Translations under genes and position numbers: made by a program
Notes under the pieces: model-generated
Seen by the model: only the letters and a program-made list of their open reading frames with translations
The model's database searches: none
Told to the model about the DNA's origin: nothing
In this document: in pieces, positions 44,411 to 56,495 of the stretch
Position numbering within the stretch: the first letter of the stretch is position 1
How the letters are laid out: the number at the start of each line of letters is the position of its first letter
Assembly: GCA_002813105.2 (NCBI GenBank)
Contig: CP017966.2
Span: 620,001 to 684,000, forward strand
Origin: Methanosarcinales archaeon Met12
GTDB taxonomy: Archaea; Halobacteriota; UBA148; JAJOKI01
Length of the DNA: 64,000 nucleotides
Direction of reading: 5' to 3'

Positions 44411-44824
44411 TCATTTCCTTCGTTTGCGTCCAGATTTGCGCTTTTTATCGCCTTTACTGAAAATCGATGGCAAGTGAACCATATAGGTTCCTTCTTCTTT
44501 TAGCGCCATGATTATTTCCGGTCGATCGAGTAGTGACTTGATATTTAATTCATACGAGCCCGGACAGAGTATTTTTATACTTTCAACCCTGTGAGAGTCG
44601 GGTGCGGGGTGCGTTTTCGGCTTTTCCTCAATTTCAACTTTGTTTATCAGTTCATTGATGTCCATGACTTCCGCATCTTCTGATAGCACATCCTGTCTGG
44701 CTATCTCCTCCGACCTATCTGTCACGTAGAGAAATTTATTCCATCCACAGGTAGGGCATCCACTCAGAATTTCAGATGCACCGTCCCTGAACGTTTGACC
44801 GCATCTGGTACATTTATGTGGCAT
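44411..44824 (-). CDS. arvC: Zinc-ribbon protein, ArvC/OapC-like
   Basis: 137 residues: an N-terminal zinc ribbon (CTRCGQTF and CPTCGWNK), a linker, a compact domain (VESIKILCPGSYELNIKSLLDRPEIIMALKEEGTYMVHLPSIF) and a very basic tail (KRKSGRKRRK). Third gene after a small GTPase and a DUF2073 gene; this trio is conserved in euryarchaea. In Haloferax the cluster has been linked to extracellular vesicle formation (ArvABC). The symbol is assigned by this context. Confidence 0.75.
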   Translation of the reverse strand: MPHKCTRCGQTFRDGASEILSGCPTCGWNKFLYVTDRSEEIARQDVLSEDAEVMDINELINKVEIEEKPKTHPAPDSHRVESIKILCPGSYELNIKSLLDRPEIIMALKEEGTYMVHLPSIFSKGDKKRKSGRKRRK

Positions 44825-44833
44825 CTTGGACTC

Positions 44834-45262
44834 CTATGAACGCACGGACACCAGTGCGCTTATCACATCGTGGTCTTTGTTAATGGTCTTGATCTGATTT
44901 GCCGGTCCGATGACGGTAAGGCGCGTTTCTATGACGACCCTTCCCAAGAGTTTGCTGATGATATTTGATCTCCGCCTAGAGGGGTAACTCTCGATCTCAA
45001 TGCCGGCGAAATCGCCTGGTGCTATCTCCGTCATTGTGAGCTCCATTAACTTCATCTCTTCATCGGGGGTGAGTCCTGCCTCAAGAATTAGGATATTGCC
45101 CTCTCTGACCTTGTCAAGTATCAATCTGATTTTCTCCATCGAGGTCATAGTTGACAGATGGTCCTTGGAGAGCATATCTATCCGAATGCCCGTCTCAACG
45201 GCACCATTTGCGCGCTTTGTGCGTTCCTCCGTCTTAGTAACTTTTTCGGTCATCTTGGTCAC
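44834..45262 (-). CDS. arvB: DUF2073 protein, ArvB-like
   Basis: 142 residues; a Lys/Glu/Thr-rich N-terminus, then the DUF2073 core (IRIDMLSKDHLSTMTSMEKIRLILDKVREGNILILEAGLTPDEE and IEIESYPSRRRSNIISKLLGR). It overlaps the GTPase stop by 4 nt (ATGA), so the proteins are made together. Biochemical role unknown; by context it is a partner of the GTPase. Confidence 0.8.
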   Translation of the reverse strand: MTKMTEKVTKTEERTKRANGAVETGIRIDMLSKDHLSTMTSMEKIRLILDKVREGNILILEAGLTPDEEMKLMELTMTEIAPGDFAGIEIESYPSRRRSNIISKLLGRVVIETRLTVIGPANQIKTINKDHDVISALVSVRS

Positions 45263-45900
45263 CCGAACCGATCAGCTATTGACTCGTATAGCTTGTCGAC
45301 ATTGATGCCATCAAGGGCAGAAATAGGAACTACGGGATGTTGTGGAAATGCGCTTTTTATCCTGGCCGGAGATGCATCTGGCAGGTCTATTTTATTGGCA
45401 ACTATTAACAAGGGCAACTCCCGCGCCTCCATGTTTCCGACGACGATGACGTTCACCTGTGTAAATGGGTCTTCGGCAGCATCCATAATCAATAATACTC
45501 CATCTATGTCATCTAGCCATTTGATGGCTTCGATCACGCCCTCCGTCCCCTCTTTTGCCCGCCGCTTTGCCTCTTCTTCATCCATCCCAAACGCCATGAA
45601 ATCATGAAAATCGATTTTCGTCGCCAAACCCGGCGTATCCACGATATCCAAGGTCACTGCCACGCCATTGGCATTAATACGTACGTTCTCCTTCCTTATC
45701 ACCCGACGGGTTTCATGAGGTATCTCGGATACTATGCCGATCACATCATCACCGCTCCAATCACGGACTATTCTGTTTGCTAGAGTGGTTTTTCCGGCAT
45801 TCGGCGGACCATAAATCCCTATGCGCACCGCCTTCTTTTTAAATATCTTTCTGATCCACGATGAGAAACTTCGTTTAATTATTTTAATCATTCTTCCCAT
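45259..45900 (-). CDS. arvA: Era-like small GTPase, ArvA-like
   Basis: 213 residues with all G motifs: G1 GPPNAGKTTL (about residue 32), the G2 region, G3 DTPGLA, G4 ANKID and G5 SALDG. A basic amphipathic N-terminus (MIKIIKRSFSSWIRKIFKKK) could bind membrane. In Haloferax volcanii the homologous GTPase of this cluster drives extracellular vesicle formation. It lies divergent from the CBS-domain operon, sharing the ~130-bp intergenic region. Confidence 0.85.
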   Translation of the reverse strand: MGRMIKIIKRSFSSWIRKIFKKKAVRIGIYGPPNAGKTTLANRIVRDWSGDDVIGIVSEIPHETRRVIRKENVRINANGVAVTLDIVDTPGLATKIDFHDFMAFGMDEEEAKRRAKEGTEGVIEAIKWLDDIDGVLLIMDAAEDPFTQVNVIVVGNMEARELPLLIVANKIDLPDASPARIKSAFPQHPVVPISALDGINVDKLYESIADRFG

Positions 45901-45954
45901 CCCATATACAAGTCATCTAATTGTCATATATATTTTATCACATTAATACTGGTC

Positions 45955-45972
45955 GTGATACTTTTATATCTT
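45955..45972 (+). promoter_or_regulatory. TATA-like promoter of the CBS operon
   Basis: CGTGATACTTTTATATCT carries a TTTTATAT box about 60-70 bp upstream of ATG 46029 and about 25 bp upstream of 45987, suggesting transcription starts near 45990. It is the only strong AT-box of this orientation between arvA and the five CBS genes, which have no room for internal promoters. Confidence 0.45.
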
Positions 45973-46028
45973 CAGATTTTATATCTATGAGTAATACAAC
46001 CTATGTGGTCATAAGATATGTGGTTAAA

Positions 46029-46601
46029 ATGACGATGGAGCAGGAAATGGAAACGCGGATATCAGTACGAGAAATCATGACCAAGGAGGTCGTCACGGCA
46101 GAAGGCGATATGAGGGCGTCTGTTGCCGGAGAAAAAATGATCGCACACAACGTGGGTAGCCTCATCATCGTCGAAGACGGCAAACCAGTGGGTATTGTGA
46201 CAGAACGGGATATGGTGCGAAAGATCATATCGGAAAACATAACACCAGGTTCCGTAACACTCAGGGATTTGATGACGCAGCCGCTTATCTCCATCAGAGG
46301 CGATGAGAGTCTGGATGAGGCGGCGCGAAAAATGATGAGATTGGATATCAGGAGACTACCTGTTGTCGAGGAAAATAAATTAGTCGGAATCGTCACCGAT
46401 ACAGATATTATTGCGGTTTCTCCAGGGCTCACCGATATTCTCACAAATTTAATCGAGATGAATCGGGACCATCCTCCATTTTCTGAAACTAAAAAGATCT
46501 CGCAGGGTATTTGTGAAAGGTGCGATGAACTCTCTGGGACCTTAGAGGTAATAGATGGGACGTCAGTTTGTGAGAGTTGTAAGGATGAAATATTCCGATG
46601 A
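46029..46601 (+). CDS. CBS protein 1: two CBS domains plus C-terminal zinc ribbon
   Basis: About 190 residues from ATG 46029 (46035 or 45987 also possible). Two CBS domains: VREIMTKEVVTAEGDM with VGIVTERDMVRKI, and LRDLMTQPLISIRGDE with VGIVTDTDIIAV. The C-terminal 40 residues hold CERCDELSG and CESCKDE, a zinc ribbon as in bacterial and archaeal adenine-nucleotide sensor or hibernation-type CBS proteins. First gene of five in a row; its stop overlaps the next start. Confidence 0.88.
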   Translation: MTMEQEMETRISVREIMTKEVVTAEGDMRASVAGEKMIAHNVGSLIIVEDGKPVGIVTERDMVRKIISENITPGSVTLRDLMTQPLISIRGDESLDEAARKMMRLDIRRLPVVEENKLVGIVTDTDIIAVSPGLTDILTNLIEMNRDHPPFSETKKISQGICERCDELSGTLEVIDGTSVCESCKDEIFR

Positions 46602-47395
46602 AAGGGGGGAAGCACATAAAAGTTCAGTATATGATGTCTAAAGACGTCGTGTCTATCAAAGAAAACGAATTTATGACCAAAGCCCGTCAATTGATGCGGC
46701 TTCATCATTTCAGGAGCGTGCCCGTCGTAGATGATGAAAATCGTGTTACCGGCGTGATAACCCGGCAAGATGTGCTGAAAATATCATCGACGAAGTCAAA
46801 TATAACTGTTAAAGGATTTGTACGAGAATGTCCGACAATAGTCCCTGGTATGAGCGGATTGGAAGCGGCGCGCATCCTGCTTGCATCTAAATTGGAGTGC
46901 GCCCCCGTCGTGAACTCGGTCCATGATCGTGAGATGGTCGGCGTCTTAAGCATCACTGATATATTCAAAAATTTGGATATTGATATCATGCCGACTAGAA
47001 CAGTTGGCGAGATAATGACTACTGATGTGAGGGTATGTTCTCCGAAAGATCCGGTCTCAAGATGCTGGGCAAACATGGATGAATATGATTACAGCGGGTT
47101 CCCGGTCGTCAAAAGGAAAAAACTTATAGGAATTATCACGCGATACGACATCATCAAAGCAGGTTATGCCAGAACGTCAAGGGAAACGGGAGAGGGAAAA
47201 TCGAATCGTTCGACCACTGTCGAAAAGGTAATGCACACGCCCGTGTACACCGTCCATCCCGAAACTACTTTAAAAGAAGCCATCGAAGCGATGCTGAAAC
47301 ACGATATTGGAAGATTGCCCGTGGTCAATGATGGCAAACTGGTCGGCATAATCGATAGATATGACTTGATTAGCGGCTATATTTCAGAGGCATGA
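46598..47395 (+). CDS. CBS protein 2: four CBS domains
   Basis: 265 residues made only of CBS units: VQYMMSKDVVSIKENE, VKGFVRECPTIVPGMS, VGEIMTTDVRVCSPKD and VEKVMHTPVYTVHPET, each followed by a (V/I)GIxxxxD element. The second unit is the most diverged (no IM motif). Two Bateman modules can bind adenine nucleotides or related ligands. ATGA overlap with gene 1; 4-nt gap to gene 3. Confidence 0.9.
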   Translation: MKGGKHIKVQYMMSKDVVSIKENEFMTKARQLMRLHHFRSVPVVDDENRVTGVITRQDVLKISSTKSNITVKGFVRECPTIVPGMSGLEAARILLASKLECAPVVNSVHDREMVGVLSITDIFKNLDIDIMPTRTVGEIMTTDVRVCSPKDPVSRCWANMDEYDYSGFPVVKRKKLIGIITRYDIIKAGYARTSRETGEGKSNRSTTVEKVMHTPVYTVHPETTLKEAIEAMLKHDIGRLPVVNDGKLVGIIDRYDLISGYISEA

Positions 47396-47399
47396 TATA

Positions 47400-48341
47400 A
47401 TGAAGAGACATCACGGCAGTATCAAGAAGGGAGCAAGACGCGCAGATGAGTCAAGTGAGGCAGTACTTGATCGCGGACCGGTGGAATTTAAATCTCGAAT
47501 CCCATCCCATCCTGGCGATATAATGACGATTGCGAGCAGGGAAGTGGTCACCGTCCCACCGACCATGACGATTATGGGCGCGGTCAAGACGATGATGACT
47601 TATGGATTCAGACGTATCCCGGTCGCAGAGGCAGGAACAAATCGGCTCGTTGGCATATTCACCGGCACTGACTTGCTTGATTTTATGGGGGGCGGTGAAC
47701 GATATAACATAATCATAAAAAAATATGATGGAAATTTTCTCGCCGCCATTAATGGGGGCATCAGGGAGATAATGCAGTGTGAGGTGGCAACGCTAAAGGA
47801 AAACCAATCGCTGAAAGATGCGCTGAATATGATGCTCCAGAAGAACATCGGCGGGATGCCAATTGTGACCGAAGACAGACGCGTAATTGGCATCATTTCC
47901 GAGCAAGATTTTGTGGAGTTGATTGCAGGCATAAAGACTGGAAAGGCCGTGAGGGATTACATGAGCGAACGCGTAATAACTGTCCTGCCCAATATGTCTA
48001 TCAAAGAAGTAACAAAGACGATGAGAAATAATGGGCTTCGCAGATTGCCGGTTGTCAAGGATGGCATTCTGCTGGGGCTGGCATCCTCTCGAGATATCAT
48101 AAGATACATAGGAAGTGGTGAGGTGTTCAATCAGTTGATTACGGGAGACATTCATGAAGCCCTGAAGCCTCCGATTAAGACGATTATGAGATCGGCCACC
48201 ATCACTATAGAGCCAGACGTAGATTTGGGCAAAGCCGCAGAGGTTATGATTGAAAGGAACGTCGGATCGCTATCAGTCATCAGCGAAGGTGTCTTGGTGG
48301 GGATTTTCACGGAAAGAGACCTTTTACGAGCCTGTCTGTGA
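47400..48341 (+). CDS. CBS protein 3: basic N-terminus plus four CBS domains
   Basis: 313 residues. The first ~40 are basic and polar (KRHHGSIKKGARRADESSEA), unlike the other four proteins, and could bind nucleic acid or a partner. Then four CBS units begin at PGDIMTIASREVV, IREIMQCEVATL, VRDYMSERVITV and IKTIMRSATITI. An insertion with GGGERYNIIIKKYDGNF between units 1 and 2 is unusual. Confidence 0.9.
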   Translation: MKRHHGSIKKGARRADESSEAVLDRGPVEFKSRIPSHPGDIMTIASREVVTVPPTMTIMGAVKTMMTYGFRRIPVAEAGTNRLVGIFTGTDLLDFMGGGERYNIIIKKYDGNFLAAINGGIREIMQCEVATLKENQSLKDALNMMLQKNIGGMPIVTEDRRVIGIISEQDFVELIAGIKTGKAVRDYMSERVITVLPNMSIKEVTKTMRNNGLRRLPVVKDGILLGLASSRDIIRYIGSGEVFNQLITGDIHEALKPPIKTIMRSATITIEPDVDLGKAAEVMIERNVGSLSVISEGVLVGIFTERDLLRACL

Positions 48342-48353
48342 GTTGATATTACC

Positions 48354-49208
48354 ATGAAAGTAAAAGATGTCATGAGCTCGCCAGTATATGTGATTGCCCC
48401 CGAGGAGCCGCTTTCACGTGCGAGAAACCTCATGCTAAAGCACGGGGTAAGTAGATTGGTCGTTGTGGATGGCGAGATTCCCGTGGGGATTATAACGAAA
48501 TCCGACCTGATGTGGAAACTCGGTCAGGCCGAACCAGCATGGCGTAGACGGCCGATCGACCGAGTTCCGGTTAAAGTGATAATGAGTGAACATCTTGTTA
48601 CTACCTATCTCGAGGCATCGCTGGAGGACGTCAGTGAGTTAATGCTGGGAAACGACATCAGTGGAATTCCCGTTGTTGGAATCGATGGATTGGTTGGAAT
48701 TATCACTAAATCCAATCTCGTCCATCATCTTTCGACTGTCAGACTGGACATAAAAGTGGAAGACATAATGAGTGATTTCGTAGTCATGGTTCACCGTCAT
48801 CATTCGATAAGTCACGTGATCGCAGAGATGGACAGAAATGATGTACACAGAGTCATAGTAATGGAAGGTGGCAATACACCGGTTGGAATCATCACGTCGT
48901 CAAATCTGGCGTTTACCGAATTGAGAGACGGCAAAGGTAAACCTCCAGAGAAGACTATAAAAATGGTCCGAAAGGAAAGTCCTGCTGGGCGCAAAAAGTT
49001 TCGAGATGTAGAGGTCGTACATCTTGTCGCCGAAGACGTCATGTCGTCTCCACTGATCACTATAGGCAGAGATGCCCTTGTCACGGATGCGGCAAAGATA
49101 TTGGTGGCACATAAGATCGACGGGGTTCCAGTAATAGATGATGAGGAAATGGTGGGAATCGTGACCAAGACCGACATCATCAAGTTGATTTCAGGAGGTC
49201 TGCGATGA
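48354..49208 (+). CDS. CBS protein 4: four CBS domains
   Basis: 284 residues. Units start at VKDVMSSPVYVIAPEE, VKVIMSEHLVTTYLEA, VEDIMSDFVVMVHRHH and AEDVMSSPLITIGRDA. A basic linker (KGKPPEKTIKMVRKESPAGRKK) separates units 3 and 4. The stop overlaps the next start by 4 nt. Confidence 0.9.
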   Translation: MKVKDVMSSPVYVIAPEEPLSRARNLMLKHGVSRLVVVDGEIPVGIITKSDLMWKLGQAEPAWRRRPIDRVPVKVIMSEHLVTTYLEASLEDVSELMLGNDISGIPVVGIDGLVGIITKSNLVHHLSTVRLDIKVEDIMSDFVVMVHRHHSISHVIAEMDRNDVHRVIVMEGGNTPVGIITSSNLAFTELRDGKGKPPEKTIKMVRKESPAGRKKFRDVEVVHLVAEDVMSSPLITIGRDALVTDAAKILVAHKIDGVPVIDDEEMVGIVTKTDIIKLISGGLR

Positions 49209-49987
49209 GCAGATATGTGGCGAAAGATATAATGGCCGAGGCACTCACCATCGATAAGTCAGCGGCATTATCTCATGCCATGGATTTGATGAAGAAACAT
49301 GGCGTCAGGCATCTGTTAGTCACAAAAGATGATAGTCTGATTGGTGTGGTGACACAGCGCACTATCGCAAGAGTGCTCGGTACCAGGAAAAAGTCGAATC
49401 TACCAGCATCGTCCCTCCATGTAGCTACTGCGATGACTGATAAATTTGCGACCATCTCCCCTGACGAAGATGTAAATAAGATTCTTCACCTCTTTCGAGA
49501 TGTAGGGGTTGTAGCGGTCTCCAATGACAAGCTGGTTGGCTGGGTTACTCCAAAGGAGGTATTGACTATCTTGAAACCCAAAGGATGTGCTGGAGACATC
49601 ATGAGCGACCCCATTTCCGTATCACCAAGCGAGCGCGTGGTGCATGTCCGTAGGCGTATGCTGGACGAGGACATTGGCCGAATGCTCGTCATAGAGGATA
49701 TGCAACTGGTCGGCATCATAACAGAGAGCGACATCGCAAGAGCAATGAGAACGTTCAGGGATTTGGTTCCAGGACATCAACAAGATAGCAGAATCAAGAA
49801 CCTTCTGGTCAGTGATATAATGAGCGTCAATGTCAAATTCATACGAACTGATACGCCGTTGTCAGACGCCATCGATCTGATGCTGAAGGAGAATATTGGA
49901 GGGCTGCCTGTTTTAAATATTCGAGATGGACTGGTCGGTATGGTCACGCGCCGGGATATTATTCGGGTTGAAGATGGGCTATTATGA
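49205..49987 (+). CDS. CBS protein 5: four CBS domains
   Basis: 260 residues. Units: AKDIMAEALTIDKSAA, VATAMTDKFATISPDE, AGDIMSDPISVSPSER and VSDIMSVNVKFIRTDT. The second unit is shortened and lacks the usual PVVD strand sequence (VVAVSNDKLVGWVTPKEVL). It ends the five-gene array; the next 150 bp have no gene until the MNT gene. Confidence 0.9.
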   Translation: MSRYVAKDIMAEALTIDKSAALSHAMDLMKKHGVRHLLVTKDDSLIGVVTQRTIARVLGTRKKSNLPASSLHVATAMTDKFATISPDEDVNKILHLFRDVGVVAVSNDKLVGWVTPKEVLTILKPKGCAGDIMSDPISVSPSERVVHVRRRMLDEDIGRMLVIEDMQLVGIITESDIARAMRTFRDLVPGHQQDSRIKNLLVSDIMSVNVKFIRTDTPLSDAIDLMLKENIGGLPVLNIRDGLVGMVTRRDIIRVEDGLL

Positions 49988-50143: not shown

Positions 50144-50716
50144 GTGGTTCAGTTGATTGAACTGTTTGAAAAATATGTGGACTGGAAGATACTCGCATTC
50201 TTCTTGAGAAATCCTACCACGACAGTGTATGTTAAAGAGTTGGCAAGAAGGCTCCATGTCAGCCCGGGAAGCGTGAGCAAAGCAGTAAAAAGGTTTGCCA
50301 TGGATAACCTTTTGCTAAAAGAGGAAAAAGGACTAGCCCACCTGTACAAACTAAACAACGAATCCGCCATTGTAAAATCCTTGAAAAAGGCATATAGTCT
50401 CATGAGAATACATGAACTGAAAATCGCTGACAAATTTCTGGATGCCGATGAAAACATAATATCACTGGCTCTTTACGGTAGCTATGCCACAGGGGACTAT
50501 GATGAGAAAAGCGATATCGATTTGTTGGCCATAACTCCCAGTGGCAGATACATTTTTACTGCACTCATAAACGATCTAGAAAGAGATTTGGTGGTTGAAA
50601 TAAGCCTGGAGGTATCTAATTTATCTCAATGGAGGTCGTTGGCAAGAAAAAATGATGTTTTTTACAGAAGGGTGATCGAGAATCATGTCCTCTTACGTGG
50701 AAGTGGATTAAAATGA
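50144..50716 (+). CDS. MNT-type nucleotidyltransferase antitoxin with N-terminal winged helix
   Basis: 190 residues from GTG 50144. Residues ~1-75 are a winged helix (VYVKELARRLHVSPGSVSKAVKRF). The MNT domain follows with LYGSYATGDYDEKSDIDLLAI, holding the GS and DxD motifs (residue ~109 onward). In MNT-HEPN systems the nucleotidyltransferase AMPylates the HEPN toxin. TATA-like TTTATATA lies about 30 bp upstream. Its stop overlaps the HEPN start. Confidence 0.9.
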   Translation: MVQLIELFEKYVDWKILAFFLRNPTTTVYVKELARRLHVSPGSVSKAVKRFAMDNLLLKEEKGLAHLYKLNNESAIVKSLKKAYSLMRIHELKIADKFLDADENIISLALYGSYATGDYDEKSDIDLLAITPSGRYIFTALINDLERDLVVEISLEVSNLSQWRSLARKNDVFYRRVIENHVLLRGSGLK

Positions 50717-51128
50717 ATTTGGATGACTGTTTTAGCCAAGGATTGCTTAGAAAGATAAATCCCGACACAGAAAATGCACGTAGGTCCATAAAAATCTCAA
50801 ACGAATATTTGGAAAAGGCAATGAAGAACAGGGAGATCGAGTGTTATGATGTGACCGTGATACTATGTTATACCTCAATGTTCCATGCTGCCCGTTCGAT
50901 GCTGTTCAGAGATGGGATTAAGGAACGTAGCCATATTTGCATACCTCTCTATATCAAAGAGAGATACCCAGAATTGGAAAGATATGCAACGTACTAGATT
51001 CATACAGAGAATTTAGGCACAGAATAATGTACAGATTGGGCGCATCCATCGATGGGAATGATGCAGATGAAGCGATAAAATCTGCAGAGGAATTCATATC
51101 TCAAACCAAGAAACTGATCGACGTCTAA
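50713..51128 (+). pseudogene. HEPN toxin gene with one frameshift
   Basis: The first frame (50713-50997) gives the N-terminal HEPN helices (NARRSIKISNEYLEKAMKNREIECYDVTVI). A shift near 50982-50990 restores the rest in another frame: VLDSYREFRHRIMYRLGAS, which holds the R-x3-H ribonuclease motif, then DADEAIKSAEEFISQTKKLID. A single-base indel explains it, so the toxin is probably inactive unless frameshifting or a sequencing error is involved. The MNT partner is intact. Confidence 0.8.
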
Positions 51129-51317: not shown

Positions 51318-51572
51318 ATGGTGATAGATTTGGTCGAGGGCGTTGAAGCGAAGAAAGTCGATGAGCAAGGGAGATTCGTGTTGCCGTCTGACTGGAGAAG
51401 AGAAGAGTTGAAAGGGACCAATGAGGTGTTCATAATAAAGAGAAAAGGATATCTCAAGATGATTCCGAAGAAGAAGGTGGACCTGACGAAATTCTTTGAT
51501 AAAGCCGATCTAGGCATGAACATAGGAGACTGGGACGAATTTGAAAAAGAGTTCTATGAGGGAGAGGTTTGA
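51318..51572 (+). CDS. vapB: VapB-like AbrB antitoxin
   Basis: 84 residues with an N-terminal AbrB/MazE swapped-hairpin pattern (AKKVDEQGRFVLPSDWRREELKGTNEVFIIKR) and an acidic C-terminal tail (WDEFEKEFYEGEV) that would wrap the toxin. TATA-like TTAATATAT lies about 25 bp upstream of ATG 51318. Coupled to vapC by a stop/start overlap. Confidence 0.85.
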   Translation: MVIDLVEGVEAKKVDEQGRFVLPSDWRREELKGTNEVFIIKRKGYLKMIPKKKVDLTKFFDKADLGMNIGDWDEFEKEFYEGEV

Positions 51573-51991
51573 GGTTCTTAGATGCAAACATCTTCATCTA
51601 CGCCTATTATAAGCCAGTGCATGACCTGAGTTCAAAGCGAAGGGCGATGAAGGAGAAATCAAAGGAAATTGTGGATAGGATAAATGAAGGAGAGACGGTG
51701 ATAACAGCCGTCGTTCATCTGTCTGAGGTTTCAAATATACTAAAACGAGCATTGCCACTGGATAAGCTTGCCACGCTATTGATCGGACTGTACTCATCGG
51801 ACAACATCAAGATCGTGGATGTCACTAAAAACGATTATCTGGGAGCGATAGAACTTATGGATGAGACGAAGATGGACCCGAACGATTCTCTTGCCATACA
51901 GATCATGAGGAGGGAGGAGATAAAAGAGATATATTCATTTGATCGTAGCTTTGAAGGTGTTGATGGGATCAAGAGGTTGCCAGAGTTTTGA
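51569..51991 (+). CDS. vapC: VapC PIN-domain ribonuclease toxin
   Basis: 140 residues, TTG start. PIN acidic residues are visible in FLDANIFIYAYY (first Asp), VHLSEVSNIL (Glu), and DPNDSLAIQIMRRE with YSFDRSFEGVDGIKRL (later Asp residues). It cleaves RNA and is held inactive by VapB. Intact, unlike the neighbouring HEPN toxin. Confidence 0.92.
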   Translation: MRFLDANIFIYAYYKPVHDLSSKRRAMKEKSKEIVDRINEGETVITAVVHLSEVSNILKRALPLDKLATLLIGLYSSDNIKIVDVTKNDYLGAIELMDETKMDPNDSLAIQIMRREEIKEIYSFDRSFEGVDGIKRLPEF

Positions 51992-52335: not shown

Positions 52336-55089
52336 ATGAAGCCCGAGGAAAAAGCAAGGCAAAAGATCGACCAACTATTGGAAGCGGCAGGTTGGATGAT
52401 CCAAGATATGCGAGAATTAGATCTTGGCGCCTCTCTGGGTGTGGCTGTCCGTGAATTTCCTCTTAAATCTGGGGCAGCAGATTACTTACTTTTTATTGAT
52501 AGAATGGCTGTTGGAGTTGTAGAAGCAAAACCCGAAGGCACCACATTAAGCGGCATTGCTGAACAATCTGCAAAATATATGGCAGACATTCCTAAAAATC
52601 TACCACATGTACAGGAACCCCTCTCCTTTGCTTATGAGAGCACGGGTATAGAAACCTTTTTTAGAGATTCGAAAGACCCCGAGCCATGCTCCAGAAGGGT
52701 ATTTGCCTTCCACAAACCTGAAACACTTAAGGAGTGGGCATCTCAAGAGGGCACCCTTAGGGCAAGACTCAGAAATATGCCTCCTTTAAGGATAGAGGGA
52801 TTAAGAGATTGCCAGATAGAAGCTATCCAGAACCTTGAAAAGTCCTTCACAGAAGCAAGGCCAAGAGCACTTATCCAGATGGCATCTGGCGGTGGGAAAA
52901 CTTACGCTGCTGTAAGTTTCATTTACCGATTAATAAAATTTGCAAATGCAAAAAGGGTGCTTTTTTTAGTTGATAGAAACAATCTAGGACGTCAGACAAG
53001 CAGGGAATTCCAACAATATATCACTCCGGATGATGGCAGGAAGTTTACAGAACTTTACAATGTCCAACACCTCACTTCAAACACCTTAGACCCCGTGAGC
53101 CGGGTCTGTATTACTACCATTCAAAGGCTATACTCCATGTTAAAAGGAGAGCCTGAATTTGATGAAGAGCTTGAGGAAAGTTCACTTTTTGAGCTCGCGC
53201 CCATGGAAGGGAAACAAAAAGAGGCATACTACAATCCCCGGATTCCGATAGAGACCTTTGATTTTATCGTTACCGATGAGTGCCATCGCTCCATTTATCA
53301 CCTCTGGCGGCAGGTGCTTGAATACTTCGATGCATTTATTATAGGTTTAACCGCAACCCCTTCAAAACAAACTCTCGGTTTTTTCAATCAGAATCTTGTT
53401 ACAGAGTATAGCCACGAGCGGGCAGTTGCAGATGGTGTGAATGTAGGATATGATGTTTATAGGATACGTACTGAGATCACTCAAAAGGGTGGCAAAGTTC
53501 CAGCAGGCTACTATATAGATAAAAGGGACAGGCTCACGAGAAAGATGCGATGGGAGCAACTGGACGAAGAACTTGAGTATTCTGCCAGGCAATTAGACCG
53601 AGATGTAGTGACTCCTGACCAGATAAGAACGGTCATAAGAACCTTCAAGGAAAAACTCTTTACGAAGATATTCCCAGGTAGAAAAGAAGTCCCAAAGACT
53701 CTCATTTTTGCCAAAGATGACTCTCATGCAGAGGATATCGTCAAGATTGTTCGAGAAGAATTCGGCAAAGGAAATGAGTTCTGCAAAAAAATAACATACA
53801 AAACCATGGGAGAGAAGACAGAAGATTTAATTGCTAGTTTCCGCAATTCCTACAATCCGCGCATAACTGTATCAGTGGATATGATTTCAACAGGCACAGA
53901 TATTCGACCACTGGAATGCCTTATATTTATGCGAGATGTTAAATCAAGGGTTTATTTCGAGCAGATGAAAGGGCGTGGGACCAGAGTTATTTCTCCAACT
54001 GATATTAATGCCGTTACTCCGGATACATCTCATAAAACGCATTTTGTGATCGTTGATGCAATAGGTGTATGCGAAAACGATAAGACCGATTCTCGTCCTC
54101 TGGACAGAAAGAGGAGCGTGACTTTTGAAAAACTTATCATGTCTGTTGCTTGGGGTAAGGGGGATAAAGATACGCTCACCTCTCTGGCTGGAAGGCTTGC
54201 CAGGCTGGATAGAGAGATAGACGAGAAAGACAGAAAGGATATCGAGACTGTAGCAGGAGGCAAGCCCCTAAAAGAAATCATCAACAACCTGCTGGATGCA
54301 GTTGACCCAGATAAAAAATTGGAAAAAGCAAAGGAGATTTTTAAGACAGAAACACCGACAGAGGAGCAGGTAGAAAAGGTTACTGAAGAGTTAATAAAAG
54401 ATGCTTGCAGCTCCTTTGATAATCCTAAATTGAGGAATACGATCATCGATATCAAGAAAAGAAGCGAGCAGACAATAGACACGATAAGTAAAGATACCGT
54501 AATTATTGCAGGCTTTGATGAAAAGGCGAAGGAAAAAGCCCTTAACATCGTTGGTACCTTCAAAAAGTTCATAGAGGAAAACAAGGACGAGCTAACTGCT
54601 TTACAGATCATTTACAGCAAACCATACGGCAAACGACATATCACATATGAGGGGATTAAGGAGCTTGCGGAAGCCATAAAAAAGCCGCCCTACTATCTGA
54701 CTCCTGAACTCCTTTGGCAGGCATATGAAAAATTGGAAAAATCGAAAGTAAAGGGAGCTGGCCCCCAGAAACTATTGACCAATATCATTTCATTGATGCG
54801 CTTTGCCATTGGCGAGAGCGATGTCCTTGAGCCTTTTGCGGAGACCGTAGACCGTAGATTCAGCGAATGGGTTGAAGAACAGAAAAAACTAGGAAGGGAC
54901 TTCACACCCGAACAGATGGAATGGCTTGAGATGGTAGAAGCTCATATTGCTGCAAGTTTGAGTATCGAAATGGAAGACTTTGAAGAGGTACCCTTTAACC
55001 AGAGGGGTGGAGCGGTCAAAGCATATCAACTCTTTGGGCAGGAACTGAATACTATTCTGGGAGAGCTTAATGAGGCGCTGACGGCATGA
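52336..55089 (+). CDS. hsdR: Type I restriction enzyme, HsdR subunit
   Basis: 917 residues. Endonuclease domain: a PD-(D/E)XK pattern in KSGAADYLLFIDRMAVGVVEAKPEG (residues ~38-70). Helicase motor: Walker A MASGGGKTYA (residue ~183), DEAD-type TDECHRSIY, GLTATPSKQT, and VSVDMISTGTDI with QMKGRGTRV. The C-terminal EcoEI_R-like region binds the methylase core. It cuts unmodified DNA after translocation. First gene of the hsdR-AlbA_2-hsdS-hsdM operon, each overlapping the next. Confidence 0.95.
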   Translation: MKPEEKARQKIDQLLEAAGWMIQDMRELDLGASLGVAVREFPLKSGAADYLLFIDRMAVGVVEAKPEGTTLSGIAEQSAKYMADIPKNLPHVQEPLSFAYESTGIETFFRDSKDPEPCSRRVFAFHKPETLKEWASQEGTLRARLRNMPPLRIEGLRDCQIEAIQNLEKSFTEARPRALIQMASGGGKTYAAVSFIYRLIKFANAKRVLFLVDRNNLGRQTSREFQQYITPDDGRKFTELYNVQHLTSNTLDPVSRVCITTIQRLYSMLKGEPEFDEELEESSLFELAPMEGKQKEAYYNPRIPIETFDFIVTDECHRSIYHLWRQVLEYFDAFIIGLTATPSKQTLGFFNQNLVTEYSHERAVADGVNVGYDVYRIRTEITQKGGKVPAGYYIDKRDRLTRKMRWEQLDEELEYSARQLDRDVVTPDQIRTVIRTFKEKLFTKIFPGRKEVPKTLIFAKDDSHAEDIVKIVREEFGKGNEFCKKITYKTMGEKTEDLIASFRNSYNPRITVSVDMISTGTDIRPLECLIFMRDVKSRVYFEQMKGRGTRVISPTDINAVTPDTSHKTHFVIVDAIGVCENDKTDSRPLDRKRSVTFEKLIMSVAWGKGDKDTLTSLAGRLARLDREIDEKDRKDIETVAGGKPLKEIINNLLDAVDPDKKLEKAKEIFKTETPTEEQVEKVTEELIKDACSSFDNPKLRNTIIDIKKRSEQTIDTISKDTVIIAGFDEKAKEKALNIVGTFKKFIEENKDELTALQIIYSKPYGKRHITYEGIKELAEAIKKPPYYLTPELLWQAYEKLEKSKVKGAGPQKLLTNIISLMRFAIGESDVLEPFAETVDRRFSEWVEEQKKLGRDFTPEQMEWLEMVEAHIAASLSIEMEDFEEVPFNQRGGAVKAYQLFGQELNTILGELNEALTA

Positions 55090-56495
55090 ACGAAAAAGAG
55101 TTGCAGTTGGTACTCGAAGAAGGAGAAGGCTATAAAATAGAGTTCAAAGAAGCTCTGACGGATATTGATAAGGAGCTTGTGGCTTTTGCCAATTCATCAG
55201 GCGGGAGAATATTTCTCGGAATAACTGACGATAAGGAGATAAGGGGAGTGAAGATAACAAATAGGCTCAAGTCACAAATTCAAGATATAGCCAATAATTG
55301 TCAACCTTCGGTAAAGATTTTATTCGAGGTGTTTAAGGACATACTGGTTATAATCGTAAGAGGGGGAGAGGATAAGCCATATAAATGCTCTTCAGGATTT
55401 TATACGCGAGTTGGTCCTAATTCCCAAAAGCTTAATCGTGACGATATTATCGAATTCTTTAAAGTGGAAGGTAAAATCAGGTTTGATGAACTGGTAAATT
55501 TAAAATTCGATTATGATACACACTTTGACCCTACTAAGCTTGACCGGTTTTTGAGACTTGCAGGCATATCAAAGGTGCTGGATATTCCATCTATACTGAT
55601 AAATTTGGGTGTTGCGGAAAAGCAGGAAGGAAAAGTTATTTTTAACAATGCCGGGATTCTATTCTTTGCGAAGAATTTGCAAGATATATACTATCATACC
55701 GCAGTGACCTGCGCCCTGTACAAAGGAACAGAGAAGATAGAAGTTTTGGACAGACGTGATTTTAACGAGGATTTGATCTCTAATATAGGCGGTGCAATGA
55801 TTTTTCTTATGCGGTATTTAGCTGTGCGATATGAAATAACTGGCGAACCGATGAGGAAGGAGATACTGGAAGTGCCTTATGAGGCTCTGCGTGAGGCTAT
55901 TATAAATGCGGTGGCGCACAGGGATTACTTTGAGAAGGGCACAAATGTGATGGTAGAGATGTTTGATGACAGGATTGAGATAACGAATTTTGGCGGGCTT
56001 GTTAAGGGTTTGAAGCCTGAGGATTTTGGTACGAAGAGTGTGCTCAGGAATCCAAGCATTGCGGATCTTCTTCACCGGGTGAAGTATATCGAGAAGATGG
56101 GGACCGGTATCAATAAGATGAGGAGGTTGGTAGCGGAAGCGGGACTGCCGCCGATTGTGTTTGAGTTTGGGACATTCTTTACTGCTATTTTCCGAAGACC
56201 CGCGAGAATAGAGCCCACCATTTTTGATGAAAGTGGCGGCGTATTTGGCGGCGTATTTGGCGGTGTAAATGAAAAAGTCGCTGAACGACTGGGTAAAGTC
56301 ATTAAGGCATTATATAGTGAGCAAGTGAATATTTCTCAGTTAGCCGTTATGACTGGTATCTCTAAAAGGACATTGGAGCGGGATATTGCTTTGTTGAAAG
56401 ATAAAGGCTTTACGGAGTTCGAGGGTGCGCCAAAAACAGGCAGATACGTCCTGACAGAAAAAGGAAAGAAGATTATGGGGGCGCTTGCAACATGA
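55086..56495 (+). CDS. AlbA_2 / Schlafen-like ATP-binding protein with C-terminal helix-turn-helix
   Basis: 469 residues. AlbA_2 domain at the start (EEGEGYKIEFKEALTDIDKELVAFANSSGGRIFLGITDD). A GHKL-like ATPase-type part follows (EAIINAVAHRDYFEKGTNVMVEMFDDRIEITNFGG; KMGTGINKMR). A low-complexity linker with FGGVFGGVN precedes a winged helix (VNISQLAVMTGISKRTLERDIALLKDKGF). Such genes are often embedded in type I R-M operons, and the role is unsettled (regulation or added defence). It overlaps hsdR and hsdS by ATGA. Confidence 0.85.
   Translation: MNEKELQLVLEEGEGYKIEFKEALTDIDKELVAFANSSGGRIFLGITDDKEIRGVKITNRLKSQIQDIANNCQPSVKILFEVFKDILVIIVRGGEDKPYKCSSGFYTRVGPNSQKLNRDDIIEFFKVEGKIRFDELVNLKFDYDTHFDPTKLDRFLRLAGISKVLDIPSILINLGVAEKQEGKVIFNNAGILFFAKNLQDIYYHTAVTCALYKGTEKIEVLDRRDFNEDLISNIGGAMIFLMRYLAVRYEITGEPMRKEILEVPYEALREAIINAVAHRDYFEKGTNVMVEMFDDRIEITNFGGLVKGLKPEDFGTKSVLRNPSIADLLHRVKYIEKMGTGINKMRRLVAEAGLPPIVFEFGTFFTAIFRRPARIEPTIFDESGGVFGGVFGGVNEKVAERLGKVIKALYSEQVNISQLAVMTGISKRTLERDIALLKDKGFTEFEGAPKTGRYVLTEKGKKIMGALAT

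Follow-up and report, generated by a model that had tools for sequence, protein, structure and literature searches.

A 64,000-nucleotide stretch of the genome of the Methanosarcinales archaeon Met12 (contig CP017966.2, positions 620,001 to 684,000; hereafter the window) carries five consecutive open reading frames (ORFs) on the plus strand at positions 46029-49987, named P1 to P5 in order, which together encode 18 CBS domains. By sequence comparison, P2-P5 are orthologues of SriA-D, proteins imaged on the 70S ribosome of Methanosarcina acetivorans, and the array belongs to the recently described sri/CM kind of gene cluster rather than being a stand-alone sensor of a GTPase. P2-P5 are very probably ribosome-binding hibernation factors. 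Hibernation of archaeal ribosomes by CBS modules has become visible only since 2025-2026, and it offers a setting for this striking set of 18 CBS domains.

We compared P2-P5 with the chains of the Protein Data Bank (PDB). P2 (46598..47395, 265 amino acids), P3 (47400..48341, 313 amino acids), P4 (48354..49208, 284 amino acids) and P5 (49205..49987, 260 amino acids) matched chains 4, 5, 6 and 7, respectively, of the entries 9ZNF, 9ZNG and 9ZNI, with scores far beyond those of other PDB chains, MJ1225 for P3 excepted. The phmmer E-values were 7.5e-68 for P2 to 9znf_4, 1.9e-78 for P4 to 9zni_6, and 5.9e-76 and 6.4e-76 for P5 to 9zng_7 and 9zni_7; the P3 profile matched 9znf_5 at 3.1e-116 and MJ1225 (3kh5) at 1.8e-97. 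All three entries were released on 2026-01-28 and are titled as cryo-electron microscopy structures of the 'Methanosarcina acetivorans 70S ribosome in complex with' SriA and SriB (9ZNF), SriD (9ZNG), or SriC and SriD (9ZNI). The gene order P2-P3-P4-P5 equals the chain order 4-5-6-7, with P4 corresponding to SriC, P5 to SriD, and P2 and P3 to SriA and SriB by inferred order. The uS12 protein of the Met12 genome matches one chain sequence common to these three entries and 9O17, the M. acetivorans 70S ribosome. At the level of structure, the AlphaFold2 model of P5 (predicted local distance difference test, pLDDT, 90.5) retrieved 9zng_7 as its first Foldseek match with a TM-score of 0.90, and four CBS domains were found in each of P2-P5, so that they share the four-CBS disc fold of the Sri proteins. 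The array here differs from those entries in that it starts with P1, which none of them contains, and from the Methanosarcina loci examined in that it lies divergent from an arvABC operon.

The comparison extends to Dri of Pyrobaculum calidifontis (9E6Q, 9E7F), whose CBS modules bind both ribosomal subunits. The C-terminal half of Dri (9e6q_3, residues 332-631) matches P4 at 4e-14 and its N-terminal half aligns with P2, although Dri is one fused protein with two modules, whereas the array consists of separate genes. The HibA paper of April 2026 defines CBS-module families CM-1 to CM-6, proposes that the modules of a 'CM-5/4/1/2 cluster' may take the place of the hibernation factor HibA, and interprets Dri as CM-1 and CM-5 joined in one protein (PMC13324472). 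The likeness of P4 to the C-terminal and of P2 to the N-terminal half of Dri fits the order CM-5, 4, 1, 2, and the array is therefore a member of this kind, with P4 as putative CM-1 and P2, P3 and P5 as putative CM-5, CM-4 and CM-2 by cluster order. Both are four clustered stand-alone four-CBS modules, mostly occurring without HibA, and our comparison found four monophyletic classes in constant order. The CM labels of the array genes come from cluster order and the alignments with the Dri halves; our tree did not resolve HibA relative to P2. The published survey was limited to four-CBS modules, and the passages available from it mention neither a two-CBS zinc-ribbon gene nor arvABC (PMC13324472).

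Conservation of the array was examined in two samples. Searching named genomes with the P3 profile gave 396 relatives, the best 80 of which were taken as loci (all counts out of 80 refer to these); the second sample comprised 60 relative genomes, numbered with a G (Met12 itself being G000) and grouped into families f1, f2 and so on. All five genes stand in the same order in 55 of the 80 named loci, with the P2-P3 fusion of locus L101 described below counted as both genes. In the second sample, loci around ArvB show the complete five-gene array, with unchanged CBS numbers per gene and a zinc ribbon on P1, divergent from arvABC in families f1, f3, f6, f11, f12, f13, f15 and f17, while family f2 has mostly a three-gene version divergent from arvABC. 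In our tree, P2, P3, P4 and P5 each form one clade across families with 100% bootstrap (100/99 or better), which identifies them as ancient paralogues inherited in order, and since gene order is kept across many families, chance and recent expansion are excluded. Judged from this phylogeny, the array is ancient, with paralogues older than the radiation of the sampled lineages. The initial annotation had described a stand-alone array of diverged repeats, kept intact after growth by duplication, and had suggested looking for the five-gene order in relatives. The order is indeed kept in these loci and many families, and the array is conserved and composed of diverged paralogues; recent tandem duplication, on the other hand, is ruled out by each of P2-P5 being a single well-supported clade that predates the radiation. 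These data point to a CBS-module ribosome hibernation system that is old and widespread among methanogen-lineage archaea.

Reduced versions also occur. We found P1 alone in f8 (flanked by radA and a phosphoglycerate mutase gene, both named by inspection), P1 followed by P3 in f7 and f9, P1-P2-P3 in f2, f16 and one f4 locus, P3-P4-P5 in ANME-2, P2-P3 in Methanolobus, and also P1-P3-P4-P5. Every sampled relative with P3 has P1 (49 of 49), on the same strand wherever both are on one contig; P1 without P3 exists, and P1 is lost from some named loci. Genomes G002, G004 and G010 have P1-P2-P3 and jointly lack P4-P5 at the array locus, while all five genes are present in G008, which belongs to the same family. 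In MAG-838, a congener and the closest relative, P2 and P3 form a single 577-amino-acid ORF (L101:8215-9948, equal to L061:6782-8515). This fusion was not counted as support for pairing because a small indel, seen in one metagenome assembly, sets its junction apart, and an assembly error is possible.

HibA, which combines a CBS module with an HPF/RaiA domain, resembles P2-P5 in having a four-CBS module that acts on the ribosome, but the HPF/RaiA domain is absent from P2-P5. The HibA paper presents Dri and HibA, with their related CBS modules, as hibernation factors and reports mutual exclusion of HibA and the CM families (PMC13324472). The Pfam S30AE model gave no match above cut-off across the 60 relatives and is ill suited to finding archaeal HibA; we replaced it with a HibA C-terminal profile built here. 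With this profile, 16 of the 60 relatives match and the Met12 genome shows no match at E <= 1e-6, and this absence fits the reported exclusion. One f7 genome has a HibA-like gene at L073:4963-6153, about 3.4 kb from arvC; this proximity seems coincidental, since no such gene was seen there in the other f7 genomes. A further four-CBS protein that stands alone, perhaps of the CM-3/HhpR type, was seen at L011:1306-2148 (near 496977-497801 of the Met12 genome); it has a long insert ahead of CBS4.

We propose that P2-P5 would each fold as a disc of four CBS domains and dock on the 70S ribosome in pairs, P2 with P3 and P4 with P5; ribosome binding and pairing are carried over from the structures of the orthologues determined by others. 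By analogy with Dri and HibA, the bound discs would occupy functional sites, and idle ribosomes would be kept inactive and protected during energy shortage in this organism. P1, encoded ahead of P2-P5, would most likely serve them as an adenylate-sensing regulator or adaptor. The joint absence of P4-P5 in G002, G004 and G010 mirrors the composition of 9ZNF (SriA with SriB) and 9ZNI (SriC with SriD).

As for the locus itself, the coordinates agree with the five same-strand, tightly spaced genes that the initial annotation had described (spacing -4, +4, +12 and -4 nt), and a count of Pfam PF00571 by hidden Markov model in each protein gave its expected 2+4+4+4+4 CBS units (significant stretches, E = 4e-31 to 2e-56). 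The 1.07-Mb single-contig genome has 37 CBS matches, about half of them within the 4 kb of the array. In P2-P5, Pfam found CBS only, apart from one below-cut-off GAF match in P2, and the proteins end with CBS4. The basic N-terminal extension noted on P3 is real and is kept in many, though not all, orthologues. We also scored the nucleotide-contact motif [ST]xxD per CBS domain in 71-88 orthologues per protein. The motif is present in both CBS domains of P1 in all orthologues (100, 100%; 71/71), while the values for CBS1-4 are 51, 82, 72 and 0% in P2, 88, 80, 95 and 100% in P3, 100, 98, 13 and 38% in P4, and 5, 14, 78 and 28% in P5. Good conservation of the motif is limited to about half of the 18 domains, so that the capacity for sensing is uneven, with P1 the protein that keeps every site; the nucleotide sensing suggested for the whole array is possible, but not evenly so. 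According to the HibA paper, the HibA module binds adenosine monophosphate (12 uM) with no clear effect on ribosome binding, and nucleotides are suggested as possible regulators of engagement or of a sequestering partner (PMC13324472).

P1 (46029..46601, plus strand, 190 amino acids) is the only array gene left unexplained by Sri orthology. It consists of two CBS domains and a C-terminal zinc ribbon, as the initial annotation had recognised, and its four cysteines C162, C165, C181 and C184 (a putative metal-binding CxxC...CxxC) are invariant in 71 orthologues. Most orthologues begin with METR or METD, for which reason the P1 start may lie at 46047 instead of 46029. The architecture is that of Ta0289 of Thermoplasma acidophilum (1PVM, 2QH1), in which a rubredoxin-like or zinc-ribbon domain comes after a CBS pair. 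The P1 model (pLDDT 82) matched these entries in Foldseek across both domains (167-174 columns, TM-score ~0.65, root-mean-square deviation ~12), at about 24% identity; from the high deviation over both domains, P1 and Ta0289 differ in relative domain placement. In two Methanosarcina loci (L155:6445-7713 and L163:6357-7625), P1 is a tandem duplicate of 422 amino acids with four CBS domains and two zinc ribbons.

The array shares an intergenic region of 128 nt (45901..46028) with the divergent arvABC operon on the minus strand, which comprises a small GTPase of the ArvA/OapA type (45259..45900, MMR_HSR1/small_GTP) and, adjoining it, ArvB/OapB (44834..45262, PF09846, 8e-42) and the zinc-ribbon protein ArvC/OapC (44411..44824, PF09845, 1.7e-41). 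In Haloferax, arvABC is the reported driver of vesicle formation (PMC10927574). Where named loci share this layout, the array and ArvA are mostly 83-253 nt apart. ArvA is divergent and adjoining in 15 of the 55 complete arrays, whereas in 33 others (Methanosarcina, Methanoperedens, Methanothrix, Argoarchaeum and similar) the upstream sequence, at least 2 kb long in each case, contains no ArvA. The pairing thus recurs in several lineages and is lost in Methanosarcinales, and given the 33 arrays without ArvA against 15 with it, the arvABC link is probably old but dispensable. In one genome with the full array, ArvA and ArvC, we did not detect ArvB between the latter two (L212:9279-11182).

Several points weigh against reading the array as a hibernation system. 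The ribosomal sites that the Sri proteins would occupy, and their inhibitory action, are taken from the entry titles and from the analogues Dri and HibA; P1 is in none of 9ZNF, 9ZNG and 9ZNI; other lineages lost P1 together with P2, or just P2, a pattern at odds with the structural pairs; and four Methanocella-like genomes of f11 (G018, G027, G036 and G045) combine the array with a HibA-like C-terminal domain, so that the exclusion is not strict. The titles name 70S complexes, and P2-P5 might instead bind ribosomes for assembly, quality control or translation start-up. We consider this improbable: Dri and HibA, the nearest relatives to have been characterised, are hibernation factors, the distributions of the CM families and HibA are largely complementary, and CM-1 and CM-4 are cited as found in dormant M. 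acetivorans ribosomes (PMC13324472). The initial annotation had suggested a multi-subunit energy or nucleotide sensor, perhaps acting on the divergent GTPase cluster, and had proposed looking for arvA beside the array in relatives; on this reading, an adenylate sensor would control ArvA and so vesicle formation. The array and arvABC are in fact divergent in Methanocellales, Methanocella, Methanomicrobiales, Mnemosynella, another archaeoglobal lineage and Methanonatronarchaeales, ArvABC act in Haloferax vesicle formation, and nucleotide motifs are kept in several domains, those of P1 above all. Yet the orthologues of P2-P5 sit on ribosomes, many relatives have arvA beside the array but the 33 complete arrays above do not, ArvABC occur without an adjoining array in several families, and the word CBS is absent from the text of the ArvA paper (PMC10927574). 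Control of the GTPase is not borne out, and we judge it highly improbable.

The hibernation reading of P2-P5 leaves the role of P1 to be weighed on its own. In many reduced clusters P1 remains where ribosome-binding genes are gone; it is the strongest candidate for an energy sensor, and we infer that it would act as an adenylate-sensing regulator of the Sri set. Compatible with hibernation by P2-P5, P1 could instead be a fifth ribosome-binding subunit, for example as a dimeric four-CBS disc. The tandem P1 of the two Methanosarcina loci is the same four-CBS unit as the neighbouring genes, and P1 directly adjoins P3 even in reduced arrays. P1 is, however, missing from the three ribosome entries, and in f8 it stands next to radA without other array genes at that locus and without P3 anywhere in the genome; a fifth subunit is a possibility to be kept in mind, though not the one we favour. 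It is rather doubtful that P1 is the adenylate switch of the Sri hibernation system and that the old arvABC pairing forms one control region for hibernation and vesicle budding in several methanogen lineages.

Directly downstream of the array, the window contains a defence-like island. A helix-turn-helix (HTH)-nucleotidyltransferase gene (PADLOC PDC-M05A, 2.9e-23) followed by a HEPN-domain gene at 50144-50997 is probably an MNT/HEPN-type pair, and a PIN-domain gene overlapped by a small ORF at 51318-51991 is probably a VapBC-like toxin-antitoxin pair. They are joined at 52336-56495 by a type I restriction R-like helicase (EcoEI_R_C, ResIII) and then a Schlafen/AlbA_2-HATPase-HTH gene.

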